From positions 3,475,131 through 3,539,130 of the forward strand of contig CM026424.1 of the NCBI GenBank assembly GCA_014871385.1: 64,000 nucleotides of DNA, given 5' to 3'. The notes below the pieces were generated by a model. The model ran no database searches. It was not told the origin of the DNA and saw nothing but the letters and a program-made list of their open reading frames with translations. Made by a program: the position numbers and the translations under genes. Below, in pieces: positions 6,223 through 64,000 of the stretch (position 1 is its first letter; the number at the start of each line of letters is the position of its first letter). The DNA is from Ceratodon purpureus. Lineage: Eukaryota; Streptophyta; Bryopsida; Pseudoditrichales; Ditrichaceae.

Positions 6223-6348
6223 CTACGGGCATGCGACGTCACTAGTCGTCTTCACTCGATTTTTCTTCCATGCCTTCCAGAAGTAGCACATTCTGGCAAA
6301 AGAGAATTTGTCTTCTTGGGCAGTGTCCGTTACACAGATCAACCATGC
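6223..6348 (-). other. Isolated exon-like segment, unassigned
   Basis: On the minus strand a polypyrimidine acceptor (CCCTTCTAACAG) precedes a 126-bp block that ends with the donor CCGTAG|GTGAGT. The block is a multiple of three and is GC-richer than the flanks. In phase 0 it reads A-W-L-I-C-V-T-D-T-A-Q-E but meets a TAG as its last codon; another frame opens with its own ATG. I recognise no domain. It may be a terminal or untranslated exon of an unseen transcript, or chance. Confidence 0.25.
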
Positions 6349-7427
6349 CTGTTAGAAGGGAAAAGACCCAGACAGCAGACTGGAAACTTTAGACGCCACC
6401 ACATGCACCGCAGAAGCCAACTCAGTGTACAACATGGGCAGTTGCACATCAGCATGCCTCCTCTGTCAGACTCCGGGATTCTAAGCTTGTATTATTCGCA
6501 AGCACTAACCGCTGATTCAAAGAAACCGACTCCTTTCAGCTACCAATTCCAAGTCCAGTTCAATGTATTGAGGCTTTGCACACCTTTATGTTTCGTACTG
6601 CAGTTATCTCTCCACTTCTTCCCCATTATGGTACTTTGTCAATCAACGTACCAGGAATTATTCTTGAAGTTTTAACAATGCAGTGTAAAAATTTCATAAA
6701 ATTGCTTCATGCATTTCACATTGAAACTGAAATGACCTGTTTGGACAAGTCCATTAAAATAATCAAGCTTAGAAAACTCCTATCAACAGTACGATGCACA
6801 ATTTTAATTTGCATGAATATTGAACTAGATTGAAAAATAGTGCAAACTGGAGTTGCAAAAAGAACTGAGAAAGAATCAAGGGTGCTCTGTAAGCCTTCGG
6901 CACAAAAGTCTACCAATATTGCCAGTCGTCTAAATTGTTAAGCACACCACACACAACTTAGCTGGGAAAAAAAATCAGTGGCTCGCTGCAATCACGAATT
7001 GTCTGGATCAATAGCGATCTTAGTCCCACTATCATCATCAAGTCTAATTAAAAAGCTGTACAATAAATCCCGAGTAACTAACTAACTAACCATTCACCAT
7101 CTAAACTATGTTCGAACAATTCACGAACTCTAGCTCCTTCAACCATGACGCTCCCCTTTGATTAAACAACACGGCTACTGGATCCAGTCAGCTGATCATC
7201 ACATTCCATCCCGTCTTAATACTAGTATGGTGATTGATCAAGGCTACCAGTTGATCGATTGTCAATCATCCAAGCATCTATTCCGAGCTAGCAGCATGAG
7301 CGAATTGAATATCAATTGAGTTTCTTACATGAATTGGGCAGTTGGATCCATCCATCTATCCATCGGTCTTCGATCTTCGATCTCTTGTGGTTTGTGTGGA
7401 TTGTACAAGTTTGAGAACTCTGCAGGT
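6349..7427. other. Intergenic, including probable 3' UTR of the bHLH-MYC_N gene
   Basis: The part next to 7427 should be the 3' UTR of the leftward gene. The remainder shows only short open frames without family features. A (TAAC)n-like run occurs near 7077-7090. Confidence 0.4.
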
Positions 7428-18026: not shown

Positions 18027-18398
18027 GAGAGAGAGAGTAACTCGGGCCGAAGGCCCGCGTGAATGAAGTGTTTGTTGGGGATAATGACACTAAGTATGCC
18101 ACCAGGACCTACAGAGTGCATGCTACCCGTGTTGCCTCCTTTCGAAGGTAAACACTATAACTACCTAGCCTAGAGCTAAGTACTACCATTAGGAAGAACA
18201 GACATGTTCTCCACCCCTAGGACATTTTAAAGGGTACCCATACAACAAGGTCAAGGGACCCCCCACCAAGATTGGGTGGATCAATGGTGGTAAAGCCCCG
18301 GGCGGCATTGGGATTCGAACCCTGGTCATCCCAGAGGGATGCCAAGAGCCTACCCAACCACTGCCCGAAGACCCTATGGTAGTTTAAAGTCATTCCGG
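18027..18398 (-). mobile_element. Full-length tRNA-derived SINE with 16-bp target duplication
   Basis: The perfect 16-bp direct repeat ACTAAAGTGACACAAA flanks the element (18011-18026 and 18399-18414). Read on the minus strand, the 5' region has a pol III B box GGTTCGAATCC (18311-18321), and an A-box-like GGGCAGTGGTTGG lies upstream of it. The 3' end carries a short hairpin (GGGCC TTC GGCCC) and then a TCTCTC tail. These are the hallmarks of a SINE mobilised by a LINE. The length is 372 bp. Related copies lie at 36163, 38602, 39950, 50351 and 58197. I do not recognise the family name. Confidence 0.9.
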
Positions 18399-20333: not shown

Positions 20334-23300
20334 AGGTACAGGCACCTATAACGGAGAACTTAAGCATTTGAGCATGGAGTGTCTGTGATTATGAAGGAGC
20401 AGTTATTTTTCCTTTGTAAGGAAATAAGGTTCAAGAAGAATGGAAATTTTTAATTTTTTTTTTAAGGAAATCTGAAATTACTACAAATTTTTGAGTCAAA
20501 AAGTAGCCCAGACACACAACCGCCATATAGCTTCACCCATTTCGGATAGGAATAAAAGCAGTGAAGGAAACTCCATTACTGAAAAACCATAACAGACATC
20601 ATGCAAATGGAGAATGGAGAGCACCAGTTACGGACAAGTCTGGACCACAAAGCTAACTAAGAAGCTCCCAATTCTAGCCATAGCCGGAGGCTGTTGATGT
20701 TATTGGGATTCCCTCCATCCGCACCCCGCGCTCCCCATGCAGGCAGCGGAAGTCCCGAGAGCGGGCACACCGTCCTCCTGATTCGGTGCAAATTTTGAGG
20801 CTCAAACCGAGTCTTCCACCTGTTCGTCGACGGTGTCAACGGCTCCTTATCGCAGGCTCTTCCCGCCCTCCATCGCTTCTCATTCCCTGCGGAAGGAAAA
20901 TGTGAGATGCATGTTGTAGGTTTACAGATAATGGTTGTCGAATAGTTTGAGGTTGGGGGTTTGGCGACATAGATATCACAGGGTTGCCAAATTGATCGAA
21001 AGGGAGGAAGTATGGGTGAGCTTGCATTCCCGGAGATGTTGAAGTGTACGAGAAGTAAGGGTTGTGAATTGCTCCAGAATTGAAAGAAAAATCTGAAGGA
21101 CCTGGCGCCTCTTGCCCGGCGATTGTCGTCTCTCCTCCCTGTCCATCGTTTGGGCGACCCTGAGATACCTGAGTTGCCCTGCCTCCGAGGCGTGTCACCG
21201 TGCTCCTAGCCTTCTCGGCAGCTCTTTGTGCCCGCGCCGCTGCTGCCTCAGCTGCGCGCAGCGCCTTCAGGCGTGCTGCCTCCTCTCGCTCTTCACGTCG
21301 ACGACCTCGCGCTTCGGCTAGCGCAGCAGCCCGGGCCTCCTTTTCGGCAGCCTTCCGTTGTCTTGTGGACTCCTTCTCGGTACGTACCCTCTCCTTCTCT
21401 CGCGCTGCTAACTCCTTCGCTTCATTGAGTCGATGTACCGCTGCGGTATACTCGTCAGACGTGAGAATCTTGGACGTCGTGAAGTCGAGGAGGGAATCTC
21501 TCCTTCTCGAACTAGCTCGGGCTGCAATGGTTGGGAGTGTGAGAAACCTGGTAATGGATTCAGGTTCGCCGTCGTCGTTATCAACCGTGCTGATTTCGAG
21601 GGCTCCCTCTCCCCTCTCTGCAGGGTCGGGTGCTACGAAGTAATGTGATGCGTTCGAATTGGGCACCTCCTCGAATTCGCCCTCCATCTCGAGCCGCGCC
21701 TCCTCGCCCAGTACGCTTCTCCCCAGAGCCTCATCACTCCCGTCCTCCTCTGTGCTGTGATGCTCGGCTTCCTCGTTCTCACTGTTTGGTGTGTGCACAG
21801 ATACAGGGTCGCAGGGAACAACCTGTCCATCGTTTCAGAAAACGTGCGTTAGTTTGAGGCTACAGGTTGGAGCAGAGCATGCTCGTTACCGAGGAGCATG
21901 ATGCAGTCAACGCCAAGCAGAGCAACCGCAATTCATCAAGTCTGAATAACAATAGCTCCATCCTCCCGAAGAGCAGCAGAGCACTCCACTCAGATCAACA
22001 GAGCACTACACCGGCAAAGCAGTCCACCGTAGCCATGACTCGCACTCCACCGAGACCTTCCCTCATGTGCTGTCCGTTAGAACAGATGTGAATTTCTATT
22101 AAAAAAAAAAAAAAAACAAACAAACGGTGAGCTTCCTTACATTTGAATCGTCATTGCCTGCAGGTTCCGGAAGCTCATCGTCCACCTGCAGGTCAGGAGC
22201 AGTTGGTGCAGCCTCGGCAGTTTCAAAAATTTCCGCAAGACCAAGGTATGAATTCACTGCCTCAGTGTTGAGAGGGTATATGCCTGTCGCTCTGAATCCA
22301 CTGCATATGTTCTCTTTTGTCAACGCTTTTCGCAGAGCCAAATGCACCCAATGAGCCAAAGTTGATTTAGTTGCCGGCTGCATCAAATTTCTAGATGTCC
22401 AGAAGTCTCTGTAACTTCTAAAGTTCTGCTTGAATGATTTAAACACACTAACATCTAGTGGTTGTAGGGCGTGAGACGTATGGGCAGGAAGCGTGATCAT
22501 GTCCAAGCCTGCAGCACGGGCCTCGAGGACGACATCTAGTGTGCAATGTGAATTGTGCCCATCAAGTATCATGAGGTGTCTCCTTTCAACTGATATTCCA
22601 CCCATGCTCCTTACACTTTCAATAAAGTGTGACAACCACACACTAAAGAGGTATGTTGTCATCCAAGCCCGGGGTTGCATGGCCATGGTTGCCCCGGGCT
22701 CGCATCTTTCAATGTAATTTTGTCTGAACCGTGTGCCTTTAAAAACATAGAAAGAAGGGATACTCACTCCACTTGCGTTTATGCAGACCAAGACACTAAG
22801 CTACTCTCTCTGGTCAGGCACGAGGGAGTGTACATGGCATGCGCCTTTCTTTGTGATCACAAGTCCTCCACCACTCCTCCCAGCTTGTGCACCGGACTCG
22901 TCGCAGTTCCAAATCCTGTCTGCACTGTACTCATGCAAGGTCATTAAAGTCTGTAAGTTTCTGTAAAAGCTTTCCACGTTTTCTGCACATAGGCCCTTTG
23001 CACGTGCGGTCTCGAGGGCTTGAGACACCCGCAGTGAAAGCTCTGGGTGGCGATGCCGCCACCACCGCATCCAACCACCACCTGGGATGCCATCGCGGAA
23101 TGGGGTGACTCTATCCTTTGTTATGTCATATACTTTCAGTTTGAGAGCAGTAGGTGTTAGTCCTTGCCCCATCTCACACATGCGTATACAATAGTCTACA
23201 AGTAGTTTTTCTTCACTTTCACTCAAAACTGCAGGTGGCCCCCTCTTTCTACTACTTCTCATGCCATAACACCATTCACGAAAAGATGTGTAAGGTATGT

Positions 23301-24486
23301 GGTACATCTCTGATGCCTTTTTCATGCTCATACCTCCGTCTACTGCAGCCTGTGCATCCCGCAACTGAGCGTTTGTCCATTTCCCAGTCTTCTGTGCCAT
23401 GCGAGGTCTGCGGGTCTGCGCTTGCGAGTCTGCTACGGGGGGCAGGTTCGGCATCGAAGAGGGCTGCATGGGTCTGCGGAATGCTGACGCTGGTGCCTGC
23501 GACCCGACTGCAGTTATGTCTTCGGCGGGCTCATATGGTGTTCCGCTTGCAGGCACACTTGGCGTTGCTCCCCGTCGAATCCGCTGCTCTGCTGGTCTGA
23601 ACCTGGGGGCTGGTGTCAAGCACTCCGTTGGTGCGGTGAAGAGCCGCACTCCGTTCACTGATCGGAGGAGTCCACGACGACTACCGAAGGCGTTCACCTG
23701 CGTCGCTCTAGTCCTCGGCGTCGGCACTCTGCTTGCAGTCCTCCTCTCCGGCCCGGCAATTACCCGCTCCAGCTGGCTGTAATCCAGCTCTTGATCGCCC
23801 ACCACAATTTCGTCTCCGCTCGATTGCTCCTCATCAGAACCGTAGCACATTCTGTCGTCATGAGGGGCGGCATTGTTGTACTGGGGATTTTCGTCACTAC
23901 CTAATAAGAGATCCTCGCTGCTAAGCTGTGGGCTGAACGCCATGAGTCACAGATGATCTACAATCTCTCAGGCCCAAACCGAATCTGCAATTCTATAATG
24001 TCAATGTGTGCATGTCAATGAACAGTCACGAGAATGCACTTCAAAGAACCAAAGAGATCAGCTCGCTAACTCCTTCGCTGGATACGCTCATTGCAATGTG
24101 TGCAAGTCAGGAAGACACCGAAACAAGCACTCTTATTCCCCAATTCCAGTCATGAGATCTGAAATTTCGGCCATGACATACACCAGTAACCGCTAATCTT
24201 CATGCTAAAGCCGGTTAACTTGGACCACATTAACCACTGCCATGATAAATCAGATCCAAATATAAACGGTGGCCATCACGGATAATAAAAGTCGTTAACA
24301 GCAGCCATGTGAATTACCAGTTTCCGTATTTGGGTGCACCAGTTTCGGCTACCTCCCCTCCACTATGAGATCATGCACCGCACTCTTGACGGATAAAATT
24401 ATCTCTTTCTAGTTTAGCCATGCGCGGCAGTGACAAAGCCTACTTACTGGTCATGGGGGTGCTAACCGGTATGGGTGTCTGTACCT
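20334..24486 (-). mobile_element. Pogo/Tigger-like DNA transposon (Tc1/mariner superfamily), near complete
   Basis: Inverted terminal repeats AGGTACAGGCACCTATAACGG-like (left) and AGGTACAGACACCCATACCGG-like (right, reversed) agree at 17 of 21 positions. They are flanked by TA on both sides (20332-20333 and 24487-24488), the duplication used by Tc1/mariner elements. The 4.15-kb interior carries one leftward transposase gene (20836-23943). It is a relative of the element at 46852-50318, about 0.7 kb longer, partly because of a probable 363-bp intron. Confidence 0.85.
20836..23943 (-). pseudogene. Pogo/Tigger-like transposase gene, one intron, one nonsense codon
   Basis: ATG at 23943 (MAFSPQLSSEDLLLG). 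The first exon runs to 22141 and encodes, in order, an acidic N-terminus, a psq-type helix-turn-helix (G-K-W-T-N-A-Q-L), a CENP-B/Tc5-type DNA-binding domain, and the DDE_1 nuclease with W-N-C-D-E-S-G, M-I-L-D-G-H-N-S-H and L-Q-P-L-D. A TAG at 22801-22803 interrupts the frame between the first two catalytic aspartates; the frame itself continues. Donor AAT|GTAAGG at 22140 and acceptor GTGAG|AAC at 21777 would remove 363 bp with no counterpart in the relative at 47387. The second exon ends at 20836 and encodes an Ala/Glu/Arg-rich coiled coil. About 914 codons in all. The intron is inferred by alignment; it could instead be a small insertion. Confidence 0.82.
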
Positions 24487-25035
24487 TAGATACAAATTTT
24501 TAAACACAAAAGTACTTCATGACCCAAAACTGATATGTAGACTTTTCCATTGTCACACCTAGCTTGTACTAATTTCCACTCATGATCAGACCCAAAACCA
24601 CGAGCTTTTTGAGTGTTTTGATTGATCAGCTTGAATTGAGTGGTCTGACAATGCTAGTTCAGCTTATTGTCGGTTCTGGGGAGGCCTACAGGTTGGTCAT
24701 GGGGGCGGTGGTGGTTTTCGGTACCTCTACCTTATATTCCACAAAAATTGAGGGCTTCGTATTGGATCTCCTTGAATGGGCACAAAAGAAAAAGTATTCC
24801 AGTTCCTTCTTTAGGGCCAACATGAATTAAGTGTTTGTTTGTCAAGTACTTTGTGTAATTGTCCAAATAACATAGACTAAAGAAGAAGATTACTACCATC
24901 TCAAAGAAAGGGTTCTTAATAAGTAACCCATACTAAGCATAATAGAATAGTGTGCATGATAGGTGGGTGTTTTATAGAAGTTTTGCTGCCAGGCCATGAA
25001 CTTAGATGCATTGGACAAAGTGATTCTTTGGTTAA

Positions 25036-25789
25036 CCCCTAAACGCCTAAACGACCAAAAACTAGTCGTTTTCATTTTTCCAAGTTCCAAAACTGTCATC
25101 CAAATGACAATTTTTCATCCATTTTTTTTTCATGTTGTAAAGTTGTGAGAAATCTATCTAATCTCATTAACAACTTCTCAAAATAATAATTTCATGAATT
25201 TTGGTGCCTCCTTAAAGTCAAAAAGATCAATACCGTATGTGCATTCAAAAATTCCTTGATACAGACAGCTGAAACACAATTTTGACTATCGGGATGATCT
25301 TTTTTGTAGTTGAGGTAAACTAATGAAATGTATTTTGGCAAATCTCTTTTCCAGTCCAATTTAAAAATTCTAAAAATACCTAAAATTGATTTATTTATAG
25401 CTGGTATAAGATGAAGGGGTATAACCGTGGCTACTTCTTGATTTTCCACGGTTTTGGGTTTTTTCAATATATTTTTTAATTAAAACATAATTTTTGAGCA
25501 CGGTAACTAATATAAGGTTTTTGGTTGTCATATTCATCTATGGTAAATATTTCATAATTTTTTAGTATAACCTGTATTTGATATGAATTTTCTTTGTTTG
25601 CTTTGATTTGAAATTTTATATTAATTACATTTTGAAATATTTAATTTCGATAAAATTATTTCTTGTAGATAACATGTGTATCTAACTAAGAAAAGTTTAA
25701 AATTCATATTTTACATTATTTATAGTAGCAAAATAAAGCATCCAAAGTCAAAGTCTATTTCTGTGGTCATAGGCTTAGGCATTTGGGGG
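25036..25789. mobile_element. TTAA-flanked inverted-repeat element, copy c (754 bp)
   Basis: Left end CCCCTAAACGCCTAAACG. The right end, reversed, reads CCCCCAAATGCCTAAGCC. TTAA abuts both ends (25032-25035, 25790-25793). The interior is AT-rich and non-coding and is homologous to 40563-40979 (copy c'). No transposase. The TTAA target and CCC ends are the hallmark of piggyBac-type elements, but with only termini to go on the superfamily is an inference. Confidence 0.7.
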
Positions 25790-25793
25790 TTAA

Positions 25794-29182: not shown

Positions 29183-29186
29183 TTAA

Positions 29187-30078
29187 CCCCTAAATGCCCA
29201 CCATGAATTCACATCAAAAACTGCCTTTCAACACTCATTTGCGAAGCAAGTTGATTTTTCCAATTTTATGGGATGTTTTTCCAATTTCAACCGTAGGATC
29301 TCATAGCTAGCTTATTGGGACATTCTTTTCCAAAATTTTAGAGAAAAATACATCACCAATTGCAAGATCGTAATGTTCAAAGTTAAAAAACAAGTTTTTT
29401 TTAATCCTTCAAAAAACTGAAATCTCACTTTCAATGATTTTTCAAAAAATATGCTTTACAAATTTGAAATGGGCAACTCCATATTCTAATATAAAAATGA
29501 CTTGAGAATCTACACAAAAAATGTCAAAAGAAAAAACTTAAATTTTCATCTTCAAAAGATATGTAAATCTAAAAACACTGTAGAATACAAGGAAAAACTA
29601 AATTGCTAATTACATCCACATAAAAGTGGATAACGTTACTTTCAACGGTTAAAAATGATGTGATACATAACAAAAAACTTTTCCAATTTTTATTTTTGAA
29701 ATATTGTCAAAATTGTATTCAAAATGAGTACTTAAAGTTCTTTTTCATGAAGAATTGACCAAACTACCCGCATAACATGAATTGTCATATCTTTTACCTC
29801 TCTTTTGGGAATGGACTGAATCAAAGCATTCTGTTTAAACATGAATCTCTACAAAATGGTGATATTTTTATTTATTTAAAAAAATAAAAATTGAAATGTT
29901 TTGTGGCTGCCCGCATTGAGATTTTTTACCTTCAACCATTCATAACTTTTGCATTACATATCCAAATCTTATGAAACAAAGTTTGGCATGCACGTAATGA
30001 CCTAGAGAATCCACATGCAAAATCTCAAAACTTGATATTAGCCGGAGACCACATTTTGGTTGCATGGGAGTTTAGGGG
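29187..30078. mobile_element. TTAA-flanked inverted-repeat element, copy a (892 bp)
   Basis: Left end CCCCTAAATGCCCACCATG, right end reversed CCCCTAAACTCCCATGCAA, with TTAA at 29183-29186 and 30079-30082. The interior is AT-rich and non-coding and contains CAACCGTAGGATCTCATAG near 29289, a motif shared with the other copies. Confidence 0.75.
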
Positions 30079-30082
30079 TTAA

Positions 30083-34276: not shown

Positions 34277-34280
34277 TTAA

Positions 34281-35220
34281 CCCCTAAACGGCCAAAGTCT
34301 TAGAATAGGCTTTTTGGAATTCGGAGCAGATTCCTACGATGTCAATTTTGGATGTAAGTTTGTGAAATTTTTTGTAGACGTAGGGAATTGCTAGAGCTTT
34401 GCGGGAGTATAATTTGTTTTTTTCACTAGATATTGAAAAAAATATTTATGGTGCCCAAAGCGTTTTTTCCTACTTCTCGGGCAGCTCCAAAATTTTCATA
34501 CACCCTCCAACTACCTTTGGGATTTTTAGCGCAAGTAACTAACATGATTGGTTTTGAGATTATCAAAAAAAAAAAAAAAAAATCTTTTATTGTGGAAGAT
34601 TTTCATTCTATAAGGAGCCAAAGTTTTATCATTTTTTTCGGTCAAGCATGAAAAAATAATTCTTTATGACATAAAAGATAGAGACTTTGTTCTTTTTTTT
34701 TCTTCACCTTTTTTACTTCAAGAATAGACATATACCTTTGTTTGACTGCATGGATTTTTATTGTAACAAAAAAATGGCTTATCAAAAAAATAAAATTAGT
34801 ATTAACAATAATATAAACATGTGTTCCTTATACAATGTTTTTCACAATGCTACGCTTTTTTGTTAAATCTAAAATTTGGTGCACAAGTAATTAACACTAT
34901 GTACATAATTTTAGTACAAAACCTCCAACATGTATAGTGCAAAAAATTTACTCAAAGAGGAGTCAAAAGTCAGTTGATCATGTTTTGAAAAGATAAAAAG
35001 AACAATGTTTCTTATTTCAATCTCAAAAAAAGATCGATCTTTCAATCCACGCGGTCAAATTTATTATAAAAAAAAATTGCATGATCTCTTAGAAGTCTTA
35101 AGTCAGATCCTACGGTTAAAGATGCAAAAGCAATTTTATTTTTGGTTTGTTCACTCTTGCTTCTTAAATGATAGTTTATGGAGTGTTTTATCATGAGAAA
35201 TAGTCACGGCCGATTAGCGG
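34281..35220. mobile_element. TTAA-flanked inverted-repeat element, copy d (940 bp)
   Basis: Left end CCCCTAAACGGCC, right end reversed CCGCTAATCGGCC, with TTAA at 34277-34280 and 35221-35224. The shared internal motif is present in reverse (AGATCCTACGGTTAAAG near 35106). Non-coding; no transposase. Confidence 0.7.
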
Positions 35221-36162
35221 TTAATAGAAATAAAGACATCCATTTTTTCCCGGGAAAAAAAGAAGAAGAAAACAATAGAGCATTTGAATATATGGGAATA
35301 TTCCATGTTCAGGCAACCTTGGTTGTGGCATTCCTCAAACAGTGGGAGCAATGAAAAGCAAACCTGTAGAGAACTGTTGAAGCACTTGTAAGTTGTCTGG
35401 ACACTTCAATTGACCAACTTCTGGAATTCAATTGGTAGGAACTCCAAAATAATTTACTTTCAATCATTTGGCCTCAATAGTGGAATAGGATAGCATAAGA
35501 CCTAAGCTTATTGCTAATGAACTACGGACAAAACTAGTCCAATTCATCTACTGTCCAATAGCCTTTCCTTTATGCTTCCTAGCTCCAACATTTGACCAAT
35601 CTCCGGTGGAACATGATGCTCGAGTTGCAGGTATCAAATGGTCATTACTTACAAGTCTACAAACTTTTGTTCTAATGAGGATTGGGATAAGAATTGAGAA
35701 TATTGAAAATTTGGGTGGGCTGAAGGTGCCAGGCAGCTAATATGTGGAAGGATCTGCTTTGAAACTTATCATTGTTTTCTCATGAATGCGGCCCATACAT
35801 CAATAGCCTGGTTTTCTAAACAAGGTATTAGTATGAAACAGTCCTTTGACAATAGCTAACTGTCAAATAAAATTGCACATGGTGAAGATTGTAGAATGGA
35901 TGGTGGACCAATTGCAACTTCCAGAAGTTGAGCAGAAGGTATCTTTATAAGTCATGTGAATACAAATCTAGTTGGCATCATGATGTGAGTTTAATGAGAT
36001 GGCTTAGTTGTATCTCACCTATGAGTTAAACATGTTGGACACCTTGTTTCATAAGTGAGAGGGATTGGCATAAAATCCTTCTGAATAAAAATAATCATAA
36101 AAAATCAAAACCAATTTAAATGAATACCTCTGACATTCAGTTCAGTATGCTTTCTGATGCCA

Positions 36163-40562: not shown

Positions 40563-40979
40563 GAATCTATCTAATCTCATTAATGAATTCTCAAAATAAC
40601 AATTTCATGAATTTTGGTACCTTTTCAAAGTCCAAAACATTAATACAGTGTGTGTATTCAAAACTTTCTTGTTACAAACAGCTAAAACACAATTTCGACT
40701 GTTGGAATGTTCTTTTTTGCAGTTAAGGTAAACTAATGAAATGTTGTTTGACAAATCTATTTTCCAGTCCAATTTAAAAATTCTAAAAATACCTAAAATT
40801 GAGTGATTTATAGCTGATATAAGATGAAGGGGTATAACCGTGGCTACTTCTTGATTTTCCACGGATCTAGATTTGAGTTAAAACATGATTTTTGAGCACA
40901 GTAACTAGTATAAGGTTTCTAGTTGTCATATACAACTATGGTAAATATTTCCGTGGTCATAGGCTCAGGAATTTGGGGG
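40563..40979. mobile_element. TTAA-family element, copy c', truncated and internally deleted
   Basis: Closely similar to 25147-25789 over its length, but it starts abruptly at the left and lacks a segment of a few hundred bases before the right end. The right end (AGGAATTTGGGGG) abuts the TTAA at 40980-40983. Similar open frames on the minus strand of both copies reflect nucleotide homology rather than a gene. Confidence 0.72.
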
Positions 40980-40983
40980 TTAA

Positions 40984-41911
40984 CCTCTAAGTGCCCAAGA
41001 AAGCCAAAACGGCTTTTTGCCATTTCGGTCAGTCTAGATAAAGGGGTTAAAATTGATATTTTTGCCTAAGATTTTTACTGGATGCTCCTTGTACTGCAAA
41101 GTTTATGTGGTAAGATTTGCAAAGCCAAATTCCAATTTGAAGACCTTCATCTAGAAATTTTAGGTTTCAAGTCCAAAACGGGCAGCTTAAAATTAGGCTT
41201 TTTTTTTAAAACAATTCTTGAAATACGTTCATAACCAAACCACCACTCAAATTCCAAAGAGACCCAAGTCAAAAAATATACCAATTTTACAAGGGCAGCC
41301 TCTAAAAATTACAAAGACAAGCTTCAATATTTGCAGTATTTTTTGAATTACTTCTTTCAAAATTTGTCAAAATTTGAGATTTTAGAATTTTTCAAAAATA
41401 ATTTCGCTCAAAAATCAAAACCTTATAAAGGCACCTAACCACCGTTCAGATTTTTCTAAAACCAAATATACGTGACGTCATGCATGTTTTACTTTATCAA
41501 CGTTTTCAAACCTACTTCTAGAAAACAATTTTTATGAGAGCCAAAAAAAGGAATGAGTCTCTCAAATTTTCCATGGAGGTACTCAAATTGATTACCTACG
41601 TGGGAAAAAATATGGACAAAATGTTTGAGGTAACAATCTTCAACTCCCCTTTTGCACCATTTTGACCATGTCATTAAGCCAATGCCTAAAAAAAGTTTTG
41701 CTGCAACTTTGAATATTATAACCTCTAAGATGGTAAACATCCAACGGCCTAAAATTTTATCAGTACATTTAAAGAAGGTTTAGTACAAGATCTTACGGCT
41801 AGATGTATAAAAAAGCAAATTTGTTTGGTTCAAATTGTCGTTTCTACATGCTGGTCAAAAATCACTGTTTTGGAGGTTTTGAGACCCAAAACACGCTTGG
41901 GCACTTAGGGG
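40984..41911. mobile_element. TTAA-flanked inverted-repeat element, copy b (928 bp)
   Basis: Left end CCTCTAAGTGCCCAAG, right end reversed CCCCTAAGTGCCCAAG: 15 of 16 match. TTAA flanks at 40980-40983 and 41912-41915. The interior is AT-rich and non-coding, with GATCTTACGGCTAGATG near 41791. It is closely related to copy e (51723). It is the best-preserved member of the family here. Confidence 0.8.
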
Positions 41912-41915
41912 TTAA

Positions 41916-46851: not shown

Positions 46852-49800
46852 AGGTAGGAGTACTCATAACCGTCCTTTTAAGCTATTTTGGGCTGGTTAC
46901 CACTTACAGGAAGAACCAAAAGTAATATTCATAGATTTGCAAGAGAAAATTAAAAATATTGAGAGAAGAAAGAGTCTTAGAAAAAACAAGTATGTATTTA
47001 TTATATAATTTCAAAGTACATAATTCGTAGGGTGCTATGTCTGTCCATAGCTGGTGGTGGAATGGATCAACAATTAGCTCATTCTTGTCCAGAGAAAACC
47101 CACTCATGCCTGCATCATATCCTAAAAATATTTTTAACTTCACTGATTACCATCCGCAAGTGTCTAAAAGAACCAAGGTACAGTGAATAAAAAATTGTCC
47201 TCAAATGTCCAACTACCGCTGCAAAGCTAACTCAAAAAGAACCCAAAAGCACCTCATAGGCGCCATCTATGAACAGTAAACCGTCCCACCAAAACTGGAA
47301 AGCAACTGTAGAGTGTGAAGATCCGACCCACGAGGCCCATGCACGCACAGGTAGCCAACGGCTCTTCCCTGCAACTTTCCAACGTCTCAAAACGGGACGG
47401 GATCCATGGAAGTCGGATCTCCAGCCCCTGGCCTCGTCGGACCTCCATCGGCGCAAGGTGCAGCCCCTGCCCTCGTCGGCGCTCTTCTGCGCTTGCGCGC
47501 CTGTTGCTCCAGCCCCGTCGTTGCCTCCCTCTGCTTACGCTCTTTCTCTGCCTCTCTCCTCGCCTTCTCTCTTTCCTTCAGCAACTTCTTGCGCTCCGCT
47601 TCAATGCGCCGCAAGACCTTCGCGGTGTCTTTCGCCTGTTTCTCTCTCTCCTTCTCGAGCTTGCGGCGCTCTACTTCTTGCTTTCGCTCCTCTTTCTCTT
47701 GTAGCACAGCCTCTTTTCGCGCTGCCTTGGCCTCCATAGTCTCGATGTACTCATCGCTCGTCATGAGAATCGAACTGCTGTAATCTATCAGGGGCTCGTT
47801 GCGATGGCGCTGTCTTCGAGCAGGGCGAATGACTCGTGGGAGTTCGAAGAGATTCGGCAGTGCAGGCAGCGGTGCAGGCAAGTGGTCCGCCCTGCCGACG
47901 TTTTCTTCCCTGTCCGAATCGTCGGGGTCCGAAGGCACGTAGAAGTGGTCACCCGCCGGTTGTGAGCTCGGAATGCGCTCTCCAAGCAGCTCTTCCATGC
48001 CCGGATCCGCCTCCGTCTCGCCCTGGTCAGTGCCCTCACCTCCATCCGGCTCGCTTTCAGATCCCGACAGTAGAGGTTGCCCATCCCCATTCTCAGGTGC
48101 CTCGGTTTCGAAACATTGTGAAGGACCAGTGTACTTATCCATGGCGTTGGGATTCAAAGGCCATATGCCAGTAGTTTGGAAACCTTTGATGATGTTTGCA
48201 GGTGTCAGCGCTTTTCTAAGTCCTAGCGAAACCCATTGCGCGAGGTCTTCCTTGCTGGCTCCTTGCCCTCTGTTACGGACTGACCATGCATCTCTGTAAC
48301 CTCGAAACGCTACTTTGAACGGTTTAAAAATACTGACATCTAGTGGCTGCAGACGATGGCTGGTATGGCTAGGCAATGACAACACATCAAGTCCATGCTC
48401 TTTGGCTTTCACAACAACGTCCAAAGTTACGTGAGATCCATGCCCATCGAGAACAAGCAGGTGCCTATTTTCAGGTGAGATTCCAAACCTTCTCCCCAAC
48501 ACATTGATGAAATGAGATATCCAGCCAGCAAACAAGTACGATGACATCCAGGCATTGTCTTGCATTGACATAGTGGCACCAGCTTCACATTTACATATGT
48601 AGTCTCGCTCTCTGCGTCGTCCTTTGAAGATGTAATAATTCGGAATTGACTGGCCTGCAGCGTTGATGCAGGACAGAACAGTGATATGTTCTCTGGCGTC
48701 TGGAACCACTGCATGTACAGATCTAGTTCCTCGTTTCGCGAAAACAAGATTCCCACCTCCAGATCTACCTGCTTGCGCTCCACTCTCGTCGGCGTTCCAT
48801 ATGTGATCTGCAGGATACTTGTGCGTCCTGAAGATGAACTCCAGGTTACGGTATAGAGAGGCGACACTTGTTGGATTTAAGCCTCTCGCTCGGCCTTCTT
48901 CCAAGCACTGGGGAGCTCTAAGGGTGAGCTCCGGATGCCTGCGTCGAAACCACCGAAGCCAGCCCGCCCCAGGGACACCATTCTTGAAAGGCGTCCACCT
49001 ATCTTGTGTAAGCTCTGCAACTTTCATTCTCACATCAGTGATTGAAAGAGGATGGGCGCGCTCTTGCATGTCAAGCAAATATCTTACCAACTGCTCGTCC
49101 TCCTCGACCGATAACACTCCCTGCCTCCCCTTCTTCCGTTTGAGCGTCTTGCCGTAAACGTGGTCTCTTAAGGATGATGCTGGAATGTTGTAGTCTCTTG
49201 CCACCGCCTTCAGTTTCGCGCCTGAGTCGATGGCAGCAATCGCCGCTTGCAACTGCTCGTCCGTCCAGAGCCCGGTCCTCCTTCGATGCTGCGCAGGAGC
49301 TCTCTGCGTCGACGTCCCACCGAACTCCATCGGCGGTCCAGGGCGTGCATGCGATGGGCGCAGGTTGTACCCTGTAGCACTCTCCCGCGACGCCCTCTCG
49401 TGCACCACGTCTGAGAAGCGCACCTGCCCTGGCCTTTGGTGGGGATTCATCGCCTGGCCCACCGCGGTTGCTTGGAAACCACCTCGTGCCCCACCACCAT
49501 TCTCTCGCACCCCACCTCCCATGCTGGGCATCGCTTCGTGGAAAGCAAAAGCTCCGACCCCATTGCCGAAGATGCTTGATTGTCGACCAGGGAGGTTGGG
49601 CACTGGCCGGAACACCGAGGCCTCACCACTGAATTGCAGCTCATCAGACACTTCGCTTTCTCTCACTAATCCATATTGTTGTAACTCAGGGGCCCAGCTC
49701 TCTTCTTCATTGTAGACACTCTCGTAACCTCTCTCTGTCTCCGTATTACTTGCCATGGTCACTGTCAAGAGGAGAAAATCTCTACTTCTATGTTCAAAAC

Positions 49801-50318
49801 AAAGATACACAAGAAACTAAAACAAAGCCTTAAGCAATCATCAGTGCAACACTTCTTTCATACCATGGAGAATTCACTTTGCAACATAAATTTTTGTTCT
49901 CTTCTGTATTTGCATTACAACCAAGCCTTGCACCCTTCATTAATGGGCAATATTGCAAATACTGCACCCTAAGTTACAAAACGCCGCCACTTACCGTTCC
50001 TTAACTAGTTGTAATTAGACCCTAAACTGCCCCCACCCTCTACTTTAACTGCAACACATGGCTGCTAAACTGCGTTTAAATATTTGATCAACCACCCTTC
50101 TACTAATCTAATTAATTTATAGTACCAATAGTATCATGTATCAATCTCCGTCCATCACGAGACCCTATACAGCCTCATCCTTATATTATTCTGTCCATGA
50201 CAATCCCCATAACCGTCACTTTTCTGTCCAAATCAGGCTTGGGATGTCATGGGGCGGTTGTGGGTCAAAAATTAGGGCTCGGAGTTGGGTAAAGGGACGG
50301 TTATGAGTACTCCTACCT
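46852..50318 (-). mobile_element. Complete pogo/Tigger-like DNA transposon, apparently autonomous
   Basis: Terminal inverted repeats begin AGGTAGGAGTACTCATAACC and are identical over 24 bp, extending to about 29 bp with one mismatch. TA flanks both sides (46850-46851 and 50319-50320). The 3467-bp interior holds one uninterrupted transposase gene on the minus strand. The 560 bp upstream of the ATG would contain its promoter. Identical ends and an intact frame suggest recent activity. The termini share the start AGGTA with the element at 20334, rather than the CAGT start usual for Tigger/pogo and Emigrant elements. Confidence 0.92.
47387..49756 (-). CDS. Pogo/Tigger-like transposase, intact
   Basis: 789 residues from the ATG at 49756 (MASNTETERGYES). 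Cuts and pastes DNA in the nucleus by binding the element's ends. Domains in order: acidic and Gly-rich N-terminus (1-155); psq-type helix-turn-helix (about 160-205, G-L-W-T-D-E-Q-L); CENP-B/Tc5-type DNA-binding segment (about 210-290); DDE_1 nuclease with W-N-A-D-E-S-G (Asp near 321), V-L-D-G-H-G-S-H (Asp near 438) and L-Q-P-L-D 36 residues later, a DD35D spacing. After an acidic linker comes a Glu/Lys/Arg-rich coiled coil (about 665-760) and a Pro/Arg-rich tail. Typical Tigger proteins are about 500-600 residues, so the C-terminal 250 residues are an addition, shared with the gene at 20836. Single exon. GC-rich compared with its AT-rich surroundings. All three catalytic aspartates are present. 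Confidence 0.92.
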   Translation of the reverse strand: MASNTETERGYESVYNEEESWAPELQQYGLVRESEVSDELQFSGEASVFRPVPNLPGRQSSIFGNGVGAFAFHEAMPSMGGGVRENGGGARGGFQATAVGQAMNPHQRPGQVRFSDVVHERASRESATGYNLRPSHARPGPPMEFGGTSTQRAPAQHRRRTGLWTDEQLQAAIAAIDSGAKLKAVARDYNIPASSLRDHVYGKTLKRKKGRQGVLSVEEDEQLVRYLLDMQERAHPLSITDVRMKVAELTQDRWTPFKNGVPGAGWLRWFRRRHPELTLRAPQCLEEGRARGLNPTSVASLYRNLEFIFRTHKYPADHIWNADESGAQAGRSGGGNLVFAKRGTRSVHAVVPDAREHITVLSCINAAGQSIPNYYIFKGRRRERDYICKCEAGATMSMQDNAWMSSYLFAGWISHFINVLGRRFGISPENRHLLVLDGHGSHVTLDVVVKAKEHGLDVLSLPSHTSHRLQPLDVSIFKPFKVAFRGYRDAWSVRNRGQGASKEDLAQWVSLGLRKALTPANIIKGFQTTGIWPLNPNAMDKYTGPSQCFETEAPENGDGQPLLSGSESEPDGGEGTDQGETEADPGMEELLGERIPSSQPAGDHFYVPSDPDDSDREENVGRADHLPAPLPALPNLFELPRVIRPARRQRHRNEPLIDYSSSILMTSDEYIETMEAKAARKEAVLQEKEERKQEVERRKLEKEREKQAKDTAKVLRRIEAERKKLLKEREKARREAEKERKQREATTGLEQQARKRRRAPTRAGAAPCADGGPTRPGAGDPTSMDPVPF

Positions 50319-50763: not shown

Positions 50764-51722
50764 GCACTTAGATCTAATCATTCATTATAACTTAACCTAG
50801 TAGACTACCATTGTCAAATCTTTTGACAGAGATTACTCCTCACTGGCTTTCACTCAATCTTCAAAAAACATTGTAATCACTACAGTTTGCTAATCCTGTA
50901 AAGATCTGAAACTTACAGAAATGGGATGACTAGTTACGTACAATGGGTGTTATATTACAAACATTGCAAGTTCCACATAAAAGAATTAGGAGTATATGTT
51001 TGTAGTATACCCTTCCTATGTATTCGGTATTGATCATGATTACGGTACCTCATATTCCACAAAAAATACATTGTTTGGTTTAAGACCGCCCAGTAGACAA
51101 TGGTTTCAAAACTGGCAAAATATTTGTCAACACTCTCGACTCCATCATCCGTGTTCAAGGAGCCATATCCATGGCATCAGCAGCATTAAGATCTGGTCAG
51201 GGCAGACCTTGGAAACAGAGTTTTTGTGCATGGCCATCTGAGTCCCGTTCAGGAATGTTCCCTCTGCTTATTCACCTGGTCAGCCCGCTCCAGACGCCGG
51301 CTTGCATTTTGATCCGCATTTACACAAGGTCATGAGATTGTCACTACTTGAGAAATGGTTTGAGTATGGTATGTACACCTATCCCCGGGACCCCCCTCCC
51401 TCTCCCAAAGGCGGACATTGTCAGATTCTTGCTCCATTGTAGATTTTATTACCCTACGATTACCTATAATGTACCCCATGTATACATGCAGCAGGGTGTC
51501 CGGCTATAGGTTAACCTATATTAGTCACTTCTAAAATTTGTAGTTATTATTGTAAGTGCTTATAAATATCCCAAAAATGGGGAAACTTCGTCTTTTCCTA
51601 TTAGCAATCACTGAAAAATAGTGAGGCACTCATTCCACCACTCCAAGTATAGTGAATTCCTTAAGTGTACGAAAATAAGTATTCATACCTTATACCATGA
51701 GCTTGGTGGACTTGCATTTTAT
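50764..51722. other. Intergenic, no gene assigned
   Basis: Less AT-rich than its surroundings around 50990-51450, but no domain or splice pattern convinces. Possible remnant of an old gene or transposon. Confidence 0.35.
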
Positions 51723-52770
51723 CCCCTAAAGGTCCAGGAAAGCCAAAATGGCTTTTTGCTGGTTCGGGCAACCTAGATGAAGAGGTTAAAAGTAATATTT
51801 TTACCTAAAACTTTTACTAGATGCTCCCTTTACCGTAATGTGTACGTGGTGAAATTTTCAAAGTCAAATTCCAATTTTACAACCTTCAACTAGAAATTTT
51901 AGGTTTTAAGTCAACTTTGGGCAGTTTTAAAAAAGGGCTTTATTTTTATTTTTTTAAATTAGAAATATGTTTAGAACCAAATCACTACTCAAAATCCAAA
52001 GTGACCCAAGTCAAAAAATTTACCAATTTTACAAGGGCACCCTCCAAAAATTACATGAACAAGCTTCAATTTTTTTTTGTAATTTTACATTTTCTCCTTT
52101 CAAAAATTGTCAAAATTTGAGATTTAGGAATTTTTCTCAATTTTTTTTTCCTAAAATTCACAAACTTATAGATGTAACTTTTTACCGTTCACTTTTTTTG
52201 CAAACAAAAAATCTTTAAGGTTATTTAAGTTTGACCATATTGTGGGTTTTATACCTCCTTTTGGAAAATAATTTGCATGAAGGCCAAAAATTCAAAATGA
52301 GTCTCCAAAATTTTGCATGGAGGTGCCCAACTTAGTTACCTACATGGAAAAAAATATGAGCAAAATGTTTGGGGTAACAATCATCAAGTCTCCCTTGGCA
52401 CCATTTAGACTATGCCTTTTTGACAAAGCCAAAAAAAAAGAAACAATAAACTTTGATTGTTATAATTTTACAAATGGTCAAGATCCAACAGTTGAAATTT
52501 AATAAGGTGTTAGTGAAAGTAGTTAGGTTGAAGATCTTACGGTTGGAAATATTAGAAAAGCAAATTGTATTGGCACTACTGGAAATGTGGTATGAGTAGA
52601 CCACATGAGTACACCCCATAGTGACTAGTTACACCCACTGTAGGTGTAACTAGTCACTATGGGGTGTACTCATGTGGTCTACTCATACCACATTTCCAGT
52701 AGTGTGGAAACATTCATCAATTTCCATAAGGTGGTCAAAATCTGCAGTTTTCGGTTTTGGAGGTGCACTT
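51723..52770. mobile_element. TTAA-family element, copy e, interrupted by a CACTA MITE
   Basis: Left end CCCCTAAAGGTCCAGG, preceded by TTAT rather than TTAA. It is colinear with copy b (CCAGGAAAGCCAAAATGGC, GATCTTACGGTTGGA). A 131-bp palindromic MITE sits inside at 52574-52704. The expected CCCCTAA right end is missing; instead a lone TTTTTCCAGTAGTG occurs at about 52799-52812. The right boundary is therefore approximate. Confidence 0.65.
52574..52704. mobile_element. Near-perfect palindromic CACTA MITE
   Basis: Begins CACTACTGGAAATGTGG and ends with its exact reverse complement. The two arms of about 62 bp appear identical around a short loop (ACTGTA region, 52636-52641). TGG flanks both ends (52571-52573, 52705-52707), the 3-bp duplication expected of CACTA elements. 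Arm identity suggests it is young. Confidence 0.9.
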
Positions 52771-58318: not shown

Positions 58319-58622
58319 GAGAGTAGACACTTTAGTGACCAGTAACAAGAAACAAGAAAGGTTATTTCATTAAGATGTGAGTTTGACATTTAGAATAGAA
58401 TAGTTTGAGTTACTAAAAGTGAATAGTTGATAGTTTTGTAGGGTTTGGACTATGGCGGGTCGAAGGTTTCTGGTAATGGTTGGTGGTTTTCTATTCTTCT
58501 GTTGTGGAAGAGGATAGACATGGTCACATGGCATAGTATATGGCAGTGTTGTTTATATTTTTAAAAGTGTTTTTAATGGTAAGCATGGGTATTTTGAAGT
58601 TGTCTTCAAGTAGTTTCATTAA
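58319..58622. other. Spacer between the SINE copy and TTAA element f
   Basis: AT-rich and non-coding; TTAA at 58619-58622 belongs to the next element. Confidence 0.4.
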
Positions 58623-58882
58623 CCCCTAAATTTCCTTGATGCAAAAGTGCCTAAATCACAAAATTTGACCTTCTTCTACTTCTGGCCCAATAAACCTCAA
58701 TCTAAGCATTATTTAGAAAATTCAACCGTAGGATCTCAAATTTAACTTGAAGTTCTACATACATACCAAATTTGAACCGCCGATTCTTTTGCATTTGTGA
58801 GATCATAATGGTAAAAGCTGACTGATTTTTTCTCCTGCGGGAACCACTAAAACTCATTTCGGGTTTTAAGGATAGTTAGGGG
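58623..58882. mobile_element. TTAA-flanked inverted-repeat element, copy f (260 bp)
   Basis: Left end CCCCTAAATTTCCTTG, right end reversed CCCCTAACTATCCTTA, with TTAA at 58619-58622 and 58883-58886. Carries the shared CAACCGTAGGATCTCAAA motif near 58722. MITE-sized member of the family. Confidence 0.75.
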
Positions 58883-58966
58883 TTAATGGAATGTGTGTAG
58901 TGGCTCTAGCCCTTGCTGTGATGACAATACAGGGGTCAACTTTCAAGCCTTAGCGACAATCCTAGC

Positions 58967-59749: not shown

Positions 59750-62700
59750 ATCCTCCCCTTCCATTAAAAGTCATTGTCCTCAATGACAAAGTCAGGATAA
59801 TGCCTTCTAAAATCAACTTCTCTCTCCCAAGAAGCTTCTTCTTCCGGATAATCCTTCCACTTGACATAGAATCTACGGAATGTCTTGTTCCTCAGATGCT
59901 GATTCTCCACCTTCAAAATCTTCTCTGGTTGAGCAAGTAGTTCTCCCTGAGGAGCAGTTTTTGGAAGATCAGGCAAAACATGACTAGGATCAGATATATA
60001 TTTCCTCAACAAACTCACATGAAATACATCATCTATCTGCCAATCCTCAGGCAACTTCAGTTTATAAGCAACTTGTCCTATTCTCTCAATAATTTCAAAA
60101 GGACCACAAAACCGAGGTGATAACTTCCTTGACTTACCAAGCTTGAGTCCAGATCTTTTTGGAGTTACCTTCAAAAATACTTTATCACCCACTTCAAATT
60201 CACGAAAGATTCTTTTTCTATCAGCATAGTGTTTAGCTCTATCCTGAGCACTCTTCATAGCCAACTTTGCCAACTCTCTAATTTCATTCATTTCCTTAAT
60301 CATTTCATTAATGCTTTCAAATCTAGTAGTAGGAGTAGAGAGTGTTATAGGAGTTCTACATTCTTGACCATATAAAATATAGAATGGACTTACCCCAATA
60401 CTACTATGAATATGATCATTGTAAGCAAATTCAATCAAATGCAACGACTTATCCCATGAGTGTTGTTTCTTACCAACATACATTCTCAACATATCTTCAA
60501 GAGTCCTGTTAGTTCTTTCAGTCTGTCCATCATTCTCAGGATGATATGCAGTACTCAACTTAATTTTGGTCCCACACAATTTGAAAAGTGTGGTCCAAAA
60601 TTCACTCACAAATTTACGATCTCTATCACTTATAATCTCACGTGGAATTCCATGGTGTTTGAAGATCTCTCTCATAAATAACTCAGCTACCCCATAAGCA
60701 GTTACAGTAGTAACTGTAGGAATAAAATGAGCTATCTTAGTGAGTCTATCTACAACCACCATGATGCTATCAAAGTTACTTCGAGTCTTAGGCAATCCAA
60801 CAATAAAATCCATACTGACCGATTCAAATTTCAAGTTAGGAGCACTAAGAGGTTGCAACAATCCAGGGCTCTTCACTTGTTCAGACTTAGAGACTTGACA
60901 TTTCAAACATCTTTCAACATATTCTTTGACATCCTTTTTCATTCCTGGCCAGTAATAATGACGCTTGACTGCCATATAGGTCTTTTGAAAACCTGGATGG
61001 CCTGCTATTGGAATATCATGAAGGTTATTCATAATATTGAGTCTATATTCCCCAGCCTTGGGAATACAGACTCTGCCATTATAATATAAAACTTCATCTT
61101 TCAATTCAAAAGACTTAAACCTATCGATTTCATTCACAGTTCTAGCTTCCTTAGACAGACTTTCAAATGGAATTTTAAAGAAATCATCATTAGGATAAAG
61201 CAATTTGATTTCATCCATCAGAGAATTTCTGATGCATGAAATAGCATTTGCTAGCGGTCTTCTAGAAAGAGCATCAGCCACCACATTTTCCTTACCTTTT
61301 ACATATTCAATTTCAAAATCAAACTCTTGTAACAATTCCATCCACCTACACTGCCTTCTACTCAAATTCGATTGGGTTGATAAATATTTCAAAGACTGGT
61401 GATCGGTTTCTATCTTAAACCTTACTCCTAGTAAATAATGCCTCCAAACCTTCAAAGAATGAATGACTGCAAGTAGTTCCTTCTCGTGTACTAGATAATT
61501 TAACTCAGCGGAATTCAATTTACGAGATTCATATGCAACTATCTTTCTATCTTGCATCAAAACTGCACCAATAGCTAAATTGCTAGCGTCGATACACAAT
61601 ATTATGTTTCCTTTCAAGGGATCCATAATAGTCAAAACAGGAGTTTGGGTTAATACTGACTTCAAAGTCTGAAAACTCAAGTCACACTCAGCAGTCCAAT
61701 CTATTTGATTACCCTTTCCTTTCAACAAATTGGTCATAGGAGCAGCTATTTTAGAAAATCCTTTGACAAATCTTCTATAATAGCTTGCAAGACCTAGAAA
61801 ACTTCTCACTTCACTCTTGTCTTTTGGTATTGGCCACTCAGCAACTACCTTGACCTTCCTAGGATCTACTGAGATTTCCTCATCAGAAACGATGTGACCA
61901 AGAAATTCAATACGAGCGGTAAAGAAATCACACTTACTTAGCTTAGCATATAACTTATTCGCTCTCAGAATTTCAAAAACTTGTTTAAGATGTTTCTTAT
62001 GTTCTTCTACATTTTTAGAATATACAAGAATATCATCCATAAATATTAACACAAATTTACCCAAAAAATCACGAAATAAGGAATTCATCAAAGTCATAAA
62101 CGTAGCAGGAGCATTTGTCAGTCCAAAAGGCATTACAACATACTCGTAATGACCTAAACGCGATCTGAAGCCTGTTTTCGGAATGTCAGACTCTTTAATT
62201 CGAATTTGATGATAACCACTCTTCAAATCTATCTTGGAAAATATTTTTGATCCATGTAAGTGATCAAAAATATCATCAACACGGGGCAACGGAAACCTAT
62301 TCTTGACAGTGAGTTTATTAAGACCACGATAATCTACACATAATCTTAATGATCCATCTTTCTTCTTAACAAAGAGGACCGGGGCACCCCAAGGTGATTT
62401 GCTAGGTCTAATGTAACCTTTGTTCAACAAATCTTTCAATTGATTCTCCAACTCAACATTTTGAGTTAGAGAATGACGATAGGGTGCCCTAGCAATAGGA
62501 GCGGCATCGACAATTAAATCTATAACGTGATCAACATCTCTCCTAGGTGGCAATCCCGTCAACTCTTTAGGAAATATATCTTTAAATTTATCCAAGAATT
62601 CATTCATTCTTTTGTTATCCTTACTTTCATCCTCAAATTCACTCACATGTATTAGAAATACTTCGTGGTTTTTCCTAATACATCGTTTCATTTGTAAATG

Positions 62701-64000
62701 AGAAAGCATAGGGACCCTTGGTGAAGATCTCTTACCTCTTATGGTGAAAGATTCCCCGTTGTGAAGCTTTCCATGGACTGCTCCCTCCTTGCATGCAATC
62801 CATGCGTCCACTTGCTTCAGCCACGCCATCTCCAATATCACCTCATATCGTGCTCCATTCCAAGCTTCAAAGTCCACCTCAGTATCTACACCTTGAATGT
62901 TCACAGGAACCTTCAACATGCGGTGAGTGATGGAACTAGTTTGGTTGTTTGGTAACAAAACTGAGCAAGGTTTGATAGGAACTAGGGGAAGTCCTATCTT
63001 GTGAGCAAATGAAGTTGATATGATATTGTGAGTGCTACCAGAATCGATAAGAATCATAGAAGAGAAGGAAGAGTTCAGAAAGCCTTTGATTTGGAGCACC
63101 GTTGGATCTTGCTCCACTTCCATGTTCATAATAGCAGCTGAGACAGTTGGGACAACATCCTTGCTTGGTTCTCCATCAGATGTATCTTCATCTCCTTGCT
63201 CCACCTCCAAAGCTGCTGTCTTCTTTTTGGATGATGGACACTCAAAGCTTCGATGTCCAGGCTTATGACACCTAAAGCAAAGACCTTTCTTCACATGCTC
63301 CTCCTGCTCTTCTTTGCTCAACATGGCACCCCTCTGTCCTGGATTGAACTTGGAACCTTGAGAGGGATTAGAACCTTGAGAGAACTTTGAAGACTTAAAG
63401 TTATTAGACCGATTGAACTCAGAGGACCTCTTTCCCAACAGACTCTTGTTCTTCTCTAACTTGCTATTAACCTCCCTCTCAAAGTTCAAAGCCACTTCTC
63501 TAACTTGCTATTAACCTCCCTCTCAAAGTTCAAAGCCAAACCATAAGCATCATCTAGAGTCCTTGGATGATATGCATTGACTTTAAATCTAATTGAATCC
63601 TTTAAGTTACGAAGAAAGAACTCAACCCTATCACTTTCACCCCAATTGGGAAAATAGACAATATGTAAATCAAACTTTGACTTGTATTGGGTTACAGACA
63701 AACTTCCCTGTTTCAAGTCATAGAGCCCTTGGTGCATGTCTTCTCCGTAATTCCCAGGAAGGAATTCTTGAAGAAACAAGTGTTTGAAAGTGCTGCAATT
63801 TGACAGAGGTTGAAGTCCACAATTCTCCCGGTCGTTCTTCAAATTATCGTACCACACACGAGCTTTGTCTTGAAGACAAATCACCATAGCCTTGATCTTG
63901 TTATCATCTTGGTAATCTAAAGTGAAGAAGTCCTCCAGCATGGAAATAAAAGACTTGACCTCCTCCGGTTTGCAGTTCCTTCCTCCAAAAGAAGGCTTGA
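59750..64000 (-). mobile_element. Ty3/gypsy chromovirus internal region (gag part and pol), runs off right edge
   Basis: Read leftward, the parts in order are: capsid-like gag sequence (from the edge), a CCHC zinc knuckle C-F-R-C-H-K-P-G-H (about 63280), retropepsin-like protease L-I-D-S-G-S-T (about 63050), reverse transcriptase with F-M-D-D-I-L-V (about 62035), RNase H (about 61600), integrase with an HHCC finger (about 61000-60900) and DDE core, and a C-terminal chromodomain [10 protein letters not shown] (about 59870). The order and the chromodomain identify a chromovirus. The visible coding part looks almost whole, with about one break. Age cannot be estimated because only one LTR is in view. 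Confidence 0.92.

Follow-up and report, generated by a model that had tools for sequence, protein, structure and literature searches.

The five complete elements found in the 64-kb window, as we call the whole stretch of Ceratodon purpureus DNA that was analyzed, are almost certainly miniature non-autonomous piggyBac transposons (MITEs) that were derived by internal deletion from coding elements of the same genome. The window lies within contig C4 of a 362.5-Mb assembly with 151 contigs. A piggyBac-like nature had previously been proposed from the letters of the window alone, and this sequence-only reading was supported by the ends, the TTAA target, coding partners with the PF13843 (DDE_Tnp_1_7) domain and uninterrupted sites. 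All piggyBac-defining features that could be tested were present.

The elements of the window are listed in Table 1, together with the whole coding elements of the genome. The outer four bases of the complete window elements were TTAA at all 10 boundaries, and 7 of the 10 ends were exactly CCCCTAA, which bears out the earlier claim of at least five TTAA-bounded members with CCCCTAA-type ends. The non-canonical ends were CCCCCAA (25032, right), CCGCTAA (34277, right), and CCTCTAA (40980, left). CCC-initial inverted ends were thus found in 8 of 10 cases, the exceptions being the left end of 40980 (CCT) and the right end of 34277 (CCG). Long mutual matches were restricted to the pairs 40980/51719 and 25032/40564, and on this basis the window members were grouped into several related families, with 34277, 29183, and 58619 standing apart. 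Relatives of the 25032 family were also present in loci L004 and L008.

Table 1. Elements of the window and whole coding elements of the same genome. Coordinates and lengths of the complete window elements include both TTAA copies.
Feature	Position in window	Length	Strand	Remarks
Complete non-autonomous element	25032..25793	762 bp	+	TTAA at both ends
Complete non-autonomous element	29183..30082	900 bp	-	TTAA at both ends; strand from weak end matches to E028
Complete non-autonomous element	34277..35224	948 bp	+	TTAA at both ends; both ends match coding element E021
Incomplete member of the 25032 family	40564..40983		+	Focal element inserted in its right-hand TTAA (40980-40983)
Focal non-autonomous piggyBac element (MITE)	40980..41915	936 bp	+	Ends CCTCTAAGTGCCCAAG / CCCCTAAGTGCCCAAG; orientation as in its coding relative E031
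3'-truncated relative of the focal element	51719..52564		+	Left boundary TTAT; right end lost next to a palindrome
Complete member, the shortest	58619..58886	268 bp	-	TTAA at both ends; strand from match to E031
E043, E044		3.9 kb		Whole coding elements
E009		4.6 kb		Whole coding element
E028, E029		5.1 kb		Whole coding elements
E021		5.4 kb		Whole coding element
E031		6.5 kb		Whole coding element

Two damaged members had also been recognized before, and both proved to be real and truncated. Positions 40564-40979 are an 86-89% copy of the 25032 element, of which they cover the interior and the right part, and the focal element is inserted in the TTAA that terminates this truncated older element. 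The 51719 member begins with TTATCCCCTAAA, and its similarity to E031 breaks off about 95 bp before the end, beside a palindrome at 52574-52704. A search for the tail of this member beyond the palindrome found none. The palindrome itself is 131 bp long and near-perfect, with 65-nt arms that are 98% complementary and a 1-nt spacer.

With one mismatch or fewer, TTAACCCCTAA was matched 12 times in the window compared with 1.53 expected (sd 1.17; maximum of 5 in 100 shuffles). In the whole genome, 5697 + 5792 = 11,489 exact copies of TTAACCCCTAA were counted, a 43-fold excess over the 141 + 128 = 269 copies of the reversed pattern. Similarly, TTAACCCCTAAA was found 4663 + 4744 times, compared with 70 + 58 for its reversed control. 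Among the first 100 listed places of TTAACCCCTAAA, all of which lie in the first 3.3 Mb of contig C1, the neighboring pairs within 1.5 kb were inward in 27 cases and outward in 4, and 19 of the 27 inward pairs spanned 823-934 bp. The count of exact TTAACCCCTAA ends suggests about 5,600 element equivalents, to which variant ends would add more. TTAA is common in AT-rich DNA, and the GC content of the window is 38%, so that such ends might be put down to chance or to base composition. However, the genome-wide excess and the shuffles, none of which reached the window count, refute this explanation, and the copy boundaries are sharp; its probability is practically nil. In the search with the focal element, 40 of 2,286 first-look candidates were scored, namely the window copy and 39 others at 93-95% identity. 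The match covered at least 913 of the 936 bases in these 40 copies, and two short partial matches were found beside one copy.

The absence of a coding member from the window had been noted from the letters and was confirmed, as none of the 116 scored PF13843 matches fell there. These matches came from a six-frame search of the whole genome, in which 116 of 998 candidates were scored. All of them were above the cut-off, the best with an E value of 5.3e-84, and 93 of the 116 contained no stop within the match, while 23 did. None of the 14 control genomes gave a PF13843 match. Eleven of the loci were extended, six by 9.9-kb stretches and five by adjoining stretches, and 7 of the 11 were whole elements of the form TTAA/CCC...GGG/TTAA. 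A transposase of the DDE_Tnp_1_7 type bounded by such ends, which the sequence-only reading had proposed to look for, is therefore present in the same genome. At L039, L040, L041, and L042, a full pair of ends was not seen within 9.9 kb each, and these loci were not counted as whole. The seven whole elements had CCC-initial ends in 14 of 14 cases and stop-to-stop frames of 660-1073 aa, and each of them contained a PF13843 match.

The 841-aa open frame of E031 matched PF13843 with 265.9 bits (hmmscan, cut-off 22.4), and no other Pfam family was matched at E 0.1. The corresponding score of E043 was 260.6 bits (hmmscan, cut-off 22.4), and its C-terminal region showed a sub-threshold zf-nanos match (E 0.024; 15.3 bits, cut-off 27). 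When compared with solved structures, the E031 transposase matched piggyBac (6x67, E 7.5e-27) and piggyBat (9c0f, E 1.6e-24), and three catalytic blocks were aligned. Those of E031 and 6x67 read TIDEM/TIDEQ, MDNYFTS/CDNWFTS, and GVDVSDQ/GVDTLDQ, respectively. The aligned aspartates (DDD) are those that we take to be the catalytic residues, and by this alignment the three catalytic aspartates of piggyBac are present in E031. The third catalytic block served as the criterion for reading a locus, by which L009-L011 were missed, and the pattern for the first block was unreliable. The second block was found in 32 of the 33 loci read in this way (the exception was L022). The piggyBac superfamily is also characterized by a cysteine-rich zinc-binding domain at the C-terminus; a Cys/His motif was found there in 24 of the 33 loci by pattern match alone.

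The focal MITE was collinear with both ends of E031. Its positions 1-206 matched E031 1-206 with 71% identity, positions 375-434 matched 5930-5989 with 80%, and positions 581-936 matched 6149-6503 with 70% (E 3.7e-32, the best match). The 34277 MITE matched both ends of E021 (E 3.3e-20 and 2.4e-9). Since both of their ends match those of E031 and E021, respectively, internal deletion of coding piggyBac elements is the best explanation for the focal and 34277 elements. E031 is a relative and not a demonstrated source of the focal MITE, because the identity was 70-80% in the aligning parts. Among the 11 coding loci extended, no coding element with exact CCCCTAAGTGCCCA ends was found, and the exact parents of the MITEs were not found either. 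Moreover, the 51719 relative matched E031 6110-6408 with 81% identity over a 302-column alignment (E 9.8e-78), and the 58619 element gave a partial match to E031 6391-6287 (73%, E 5.3e-11). The 29183 element showed weak collinear end matches to E028 in the reverse orientation (E 0.007 and 0.026), and the 25032 element matched the coding elements weakly or over very short stretches, with the query cut at 25790 and the right-end row out of register.

These matches also bear on the possibility that the elements are MITEs of the Tc1/mariner or pogo type that have a TA target and ACCCC ends and prefer T-TA-A sites. The ends are structurally compatible with this possibility, and pogo-like DDE_1 transposases occur in the same window (47387-49810 and 22099-23943); it is the transposase, and not the ends, that rules out a TA target in combination with ACCCC ends. 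However, no DDE_1 or DDE_3 match was found in E031 and E043, the two coding partners scanned, and the stretches that the focal MITE has in common with E031 measure 206 bp at one end and about 355 bp at the other. We regard a Tc1/mariner or pogo origin as extremely unlikely.

The piggyBac reading of the elements was further examined at their target sites. The genome contained 387 exact CCCCTAAGTGCCCA ends, and TTAA stood directly before 349 of them. Twelve focal copies were fetched, one of which was the window copy, and 9 of the 12 had TTAA at both ends. The others were L054 (left ATAA), L055 (left end lost, right TAAA), and L056 (right CTAA). The flanks of the focal copies were unrelated by eye. 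In a BLAST search with the joined flanks, a few showed partial similarity to other sequence and were examined as possible paralogous sites.

The copy at L056 was inserted at the inner TTAA of another piggyBac terminus, which belongs to the E043 family. At this site, all five fetched paralogues were continuous and had no insert. TTAA was kept in three of them (L064, L067, and L068): L067 and L068 had exactly GACGTTTAAGGGTTAA at the site, and L064 had TTAA with changes beside it. The other two paralogues read TTAC (L065) and TTGA (L066). In addition, when the flanks of L048 were joined with a single TTAA, they aligned across the junction to the L052 paralogue without extra bases, and this paralogue read TTAC. 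A check of empty sites for a single TTAA had been suggested by the sequence-only reading, and the alignments of these uninterrupted paralogous sites fit a 4-bp target that occurs once. The TTAA target duplicated on insertion, a piggyBac trait, is found in these elements. Three further candidates were rejected as empty sites. The left flank of L051 matched window positions 18028-18333, but the match stopped at the junction; L049 gave weak evidence, with about 72% identity across the junction and CCAA in the paralogue; and L053 had palindromic flanks. The L053 copy of the focal family (1501-2437) lies within a long near-perfect inverted repeat, and its joined flanks matched their own reverse complement with 99.8% identity over 588 bp.

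TTA is contained in TTAA, and an excerpt of PMC10004981 describes Tourist MITEs, whose target is TAA/TTA, as a standard class in plants. The elements could accordingly be viewed as Tourist-like MITEs of the PIF/Harbinger type, for which the target would be the 3-bp TTA/TAA, an alternative that had been named for testing together with the TTAA ends. TTA was found to fit worse than TTAA. All four TTAA bases were kept at those 349 of the 387 ends, and if the element is written symmetrically as TTA-ACCCC...GGGGT-TAA, it is flanked by TTA on the left and TAA on the right, which is no direct repeat. Furthermore, in the scans of two coding relatives, E031 and E043, PF13843 was matched but no Harbinger family, and neither of the two showed a Harbinger-type transposase with a Myb-like protein. 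The elements resemble Tourist/PIF-Harbinger plant MITEs in being short and in having inverted ends and an A+T target, but the latter differ in their 3-bp target and their transposase, neither of which was found in the moss elements. A PIF/Harbinger origin is therefore very unlikely.

As piggyBac elements, the window MITEs would be served by the DDE_Tnp_1_7 transposase of their coding relatives. Once bound to the CCCCTAA-type ends, this enzyme would excise the element at TTAA and integrate it at a different TTAA. Each copy would thus be flanked by TTAA, and the unoccupied site would carry a single TTAA. The transposase of the coding relatives probably cross-mobilizes the window MITEs, their excision is presumably seamless, and the family may still be able to move today. 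Recent movement was indicated for the lineage of E043 and E044, because these two copies (loci L043 and L044), each of which has an open frame of 1073 aa, shared 99.1% identity across 3,904 bp and lay in different flanks, with the similarity ending at TTAA on both sides. The pair L031/L036 (99.2% over 3.2 kb) was rejected as evidence of movement, since the similarity breaks off inside the element.

The transposases were diverse. For this comparison, L009-L011 and L022, which the patterns missed, were left out of the 36 loci read; in the 496 pairs of the remaining 32 loci, the identity of the catalytic core ranged from 33 to 99%, with a median of 41%. A domain of about 75 aa was found upstream of the catalytic core in E043, where it lies in the same open frame, and in E031, E029, and E009, where it lies in separate upstream frames. 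A profile built from these four versions also detected it in further loci that had not contributed to the profile, among them L014, a relative of E043 (E 2.7e-25), L040 (E 2.6e-16), and L039 (E 2.6e-12). The whole elements E021 and E028 gave no match to the domain, also when the profile was iterated once, so that it is not general to all lineages here. No Pfam family matched the domain at E 0.1 in the four proteins that carry it, and no PDB entry matched the E043 version at E 10. When the genome was searched with the E031 version, 68 matches reached E 0.001 or better. Eighteen of them lay within 8 kb of a scored transposase match, all 18 on the same strand and 1.2-1.9 kb upstream. The other 50 had no scored transposase match nearby, with 116 of the 998 transposase candidates scored. 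The upstream domain is a possible variant feature of these piggyBac elements.

With a little less than even confidence, we propose that mosses host their own piggyBac radiation, which would be old, diverse, and still moving, with thousands of MITEs and with deep lineages whose core identity goes down to 33%, and in which several lineages would carry a moss-specific N-terminal domain that resembles no known piggyBac domain. If this is true, the moss radiation is a plant-native piggyBac system.

An uneven distribution over the assembly was also observed. Contig C6 has 110.5 Mb, or 30.5% of the assembly, and is probably a sex chromosome. For C. purpureus, an excerpt of PMC8000587 gives a 360-Mb genome and U/V sex chromosomes of more than 100 Mb each, about 30% of the genome. 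Relative to the 30.5% share, elements of the piggyBac type were apparently under-represented on C6. It carried 19 of the 116 transposase matches that were scored (binomial P 0.0004) and 4 of the 40 scored focal MITE copies (P 0.002), counts that come from best-scoring subsets in which a scoring or age bias is possible. The matches of the upstream domain were not depleted there (23 of 68).

The moss elements share with animal piggyBac (6x67) and piggyBat (9c0f) the DDE_Tnp_1_7 core, the three catalytic blocks, the TTAA target, and short CCC-initial inverted ends. Unlike animal piggyBac, some moss lineages carry the extra upstream domain that has no Pfam or PDB match. Beetle piggyBac elements are 2.1-3.5 kb long with 500-725 aa in the part of PMC12732532 available, compared with 3.9-6.5 kb and 660-1073 aa for the moss coding elements. 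The length alone is unexceptional, since other animal piggyBac elements span 1.23 to 9.51 kb in an excerpt of PMC10813416. Like piggyBac-derived MITEs, the window elements are short, non-coding, and flanked by TTAA, and have ends in common with coding elements, while the presence of several families side by side in the moss genome sets them apart.

The sequence-only reading had described piggyBac as rarely reported in land plants, and this statement calls for some caution. A 2025 paper, in excerpt, reports piggyBac as widespread in animals, fungi, and protists and plant occurrences as occasional, naming red algae (PMC12732532). In a 2015 survey, also in excerpt, PiggyBac is among the superfamilies listed for all groups studied, land plants included (PMC4438587). 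A fern genome table excerpted from PMC6890710 gives 1,230 PiggyBac fragments and 0.00% of the assembly. The class of piggyBac MITEs is not new, because piggyBac is listed among the angiosperm MITE superfamilies in the excerpt of PMC10004981. Among openly licensed papers, a scope outside which the Ceratodon genome paper falls, none was found that joins piggyBac and Ceratodon, and none on moss piggyBac elements was evident from the listings. Thus, piggyBac has precedents in land plants, and the present elements are of interest for the scale at which they occur in such a plant, for their diversity, and for their recent activity. The numerous exact TTAACCCCTAA ends, the open transposase domains, the wide range of identities, and the near-identical copies would make the history of plant piggyBac testable, the histories to be told apart being vertical inheritance, repeated transfer, or both. 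The moss elements could also offer plant-native pairs of transposase and donor for marker excision in plants, for which animal-derived piggyBac has been used, judging by reference titles in PMC12732532.

Other transposons were observed in the window. A Ty3/Gypsy-type polyprotein with a chromodomain lies at 59764-63495 on the minus strand and is open over 1243 aa. The two pogo-like transposases, both on the minus strand, combine DDE_1 with a Tc5-type HTH, and one of them is open over 807 aa, while the other is split in two frames. An excerpt of a pogo survey reports land-plant pogo from 23 eudicot species only (PMC7386202), and pogo in a moss genome may be worth attention.
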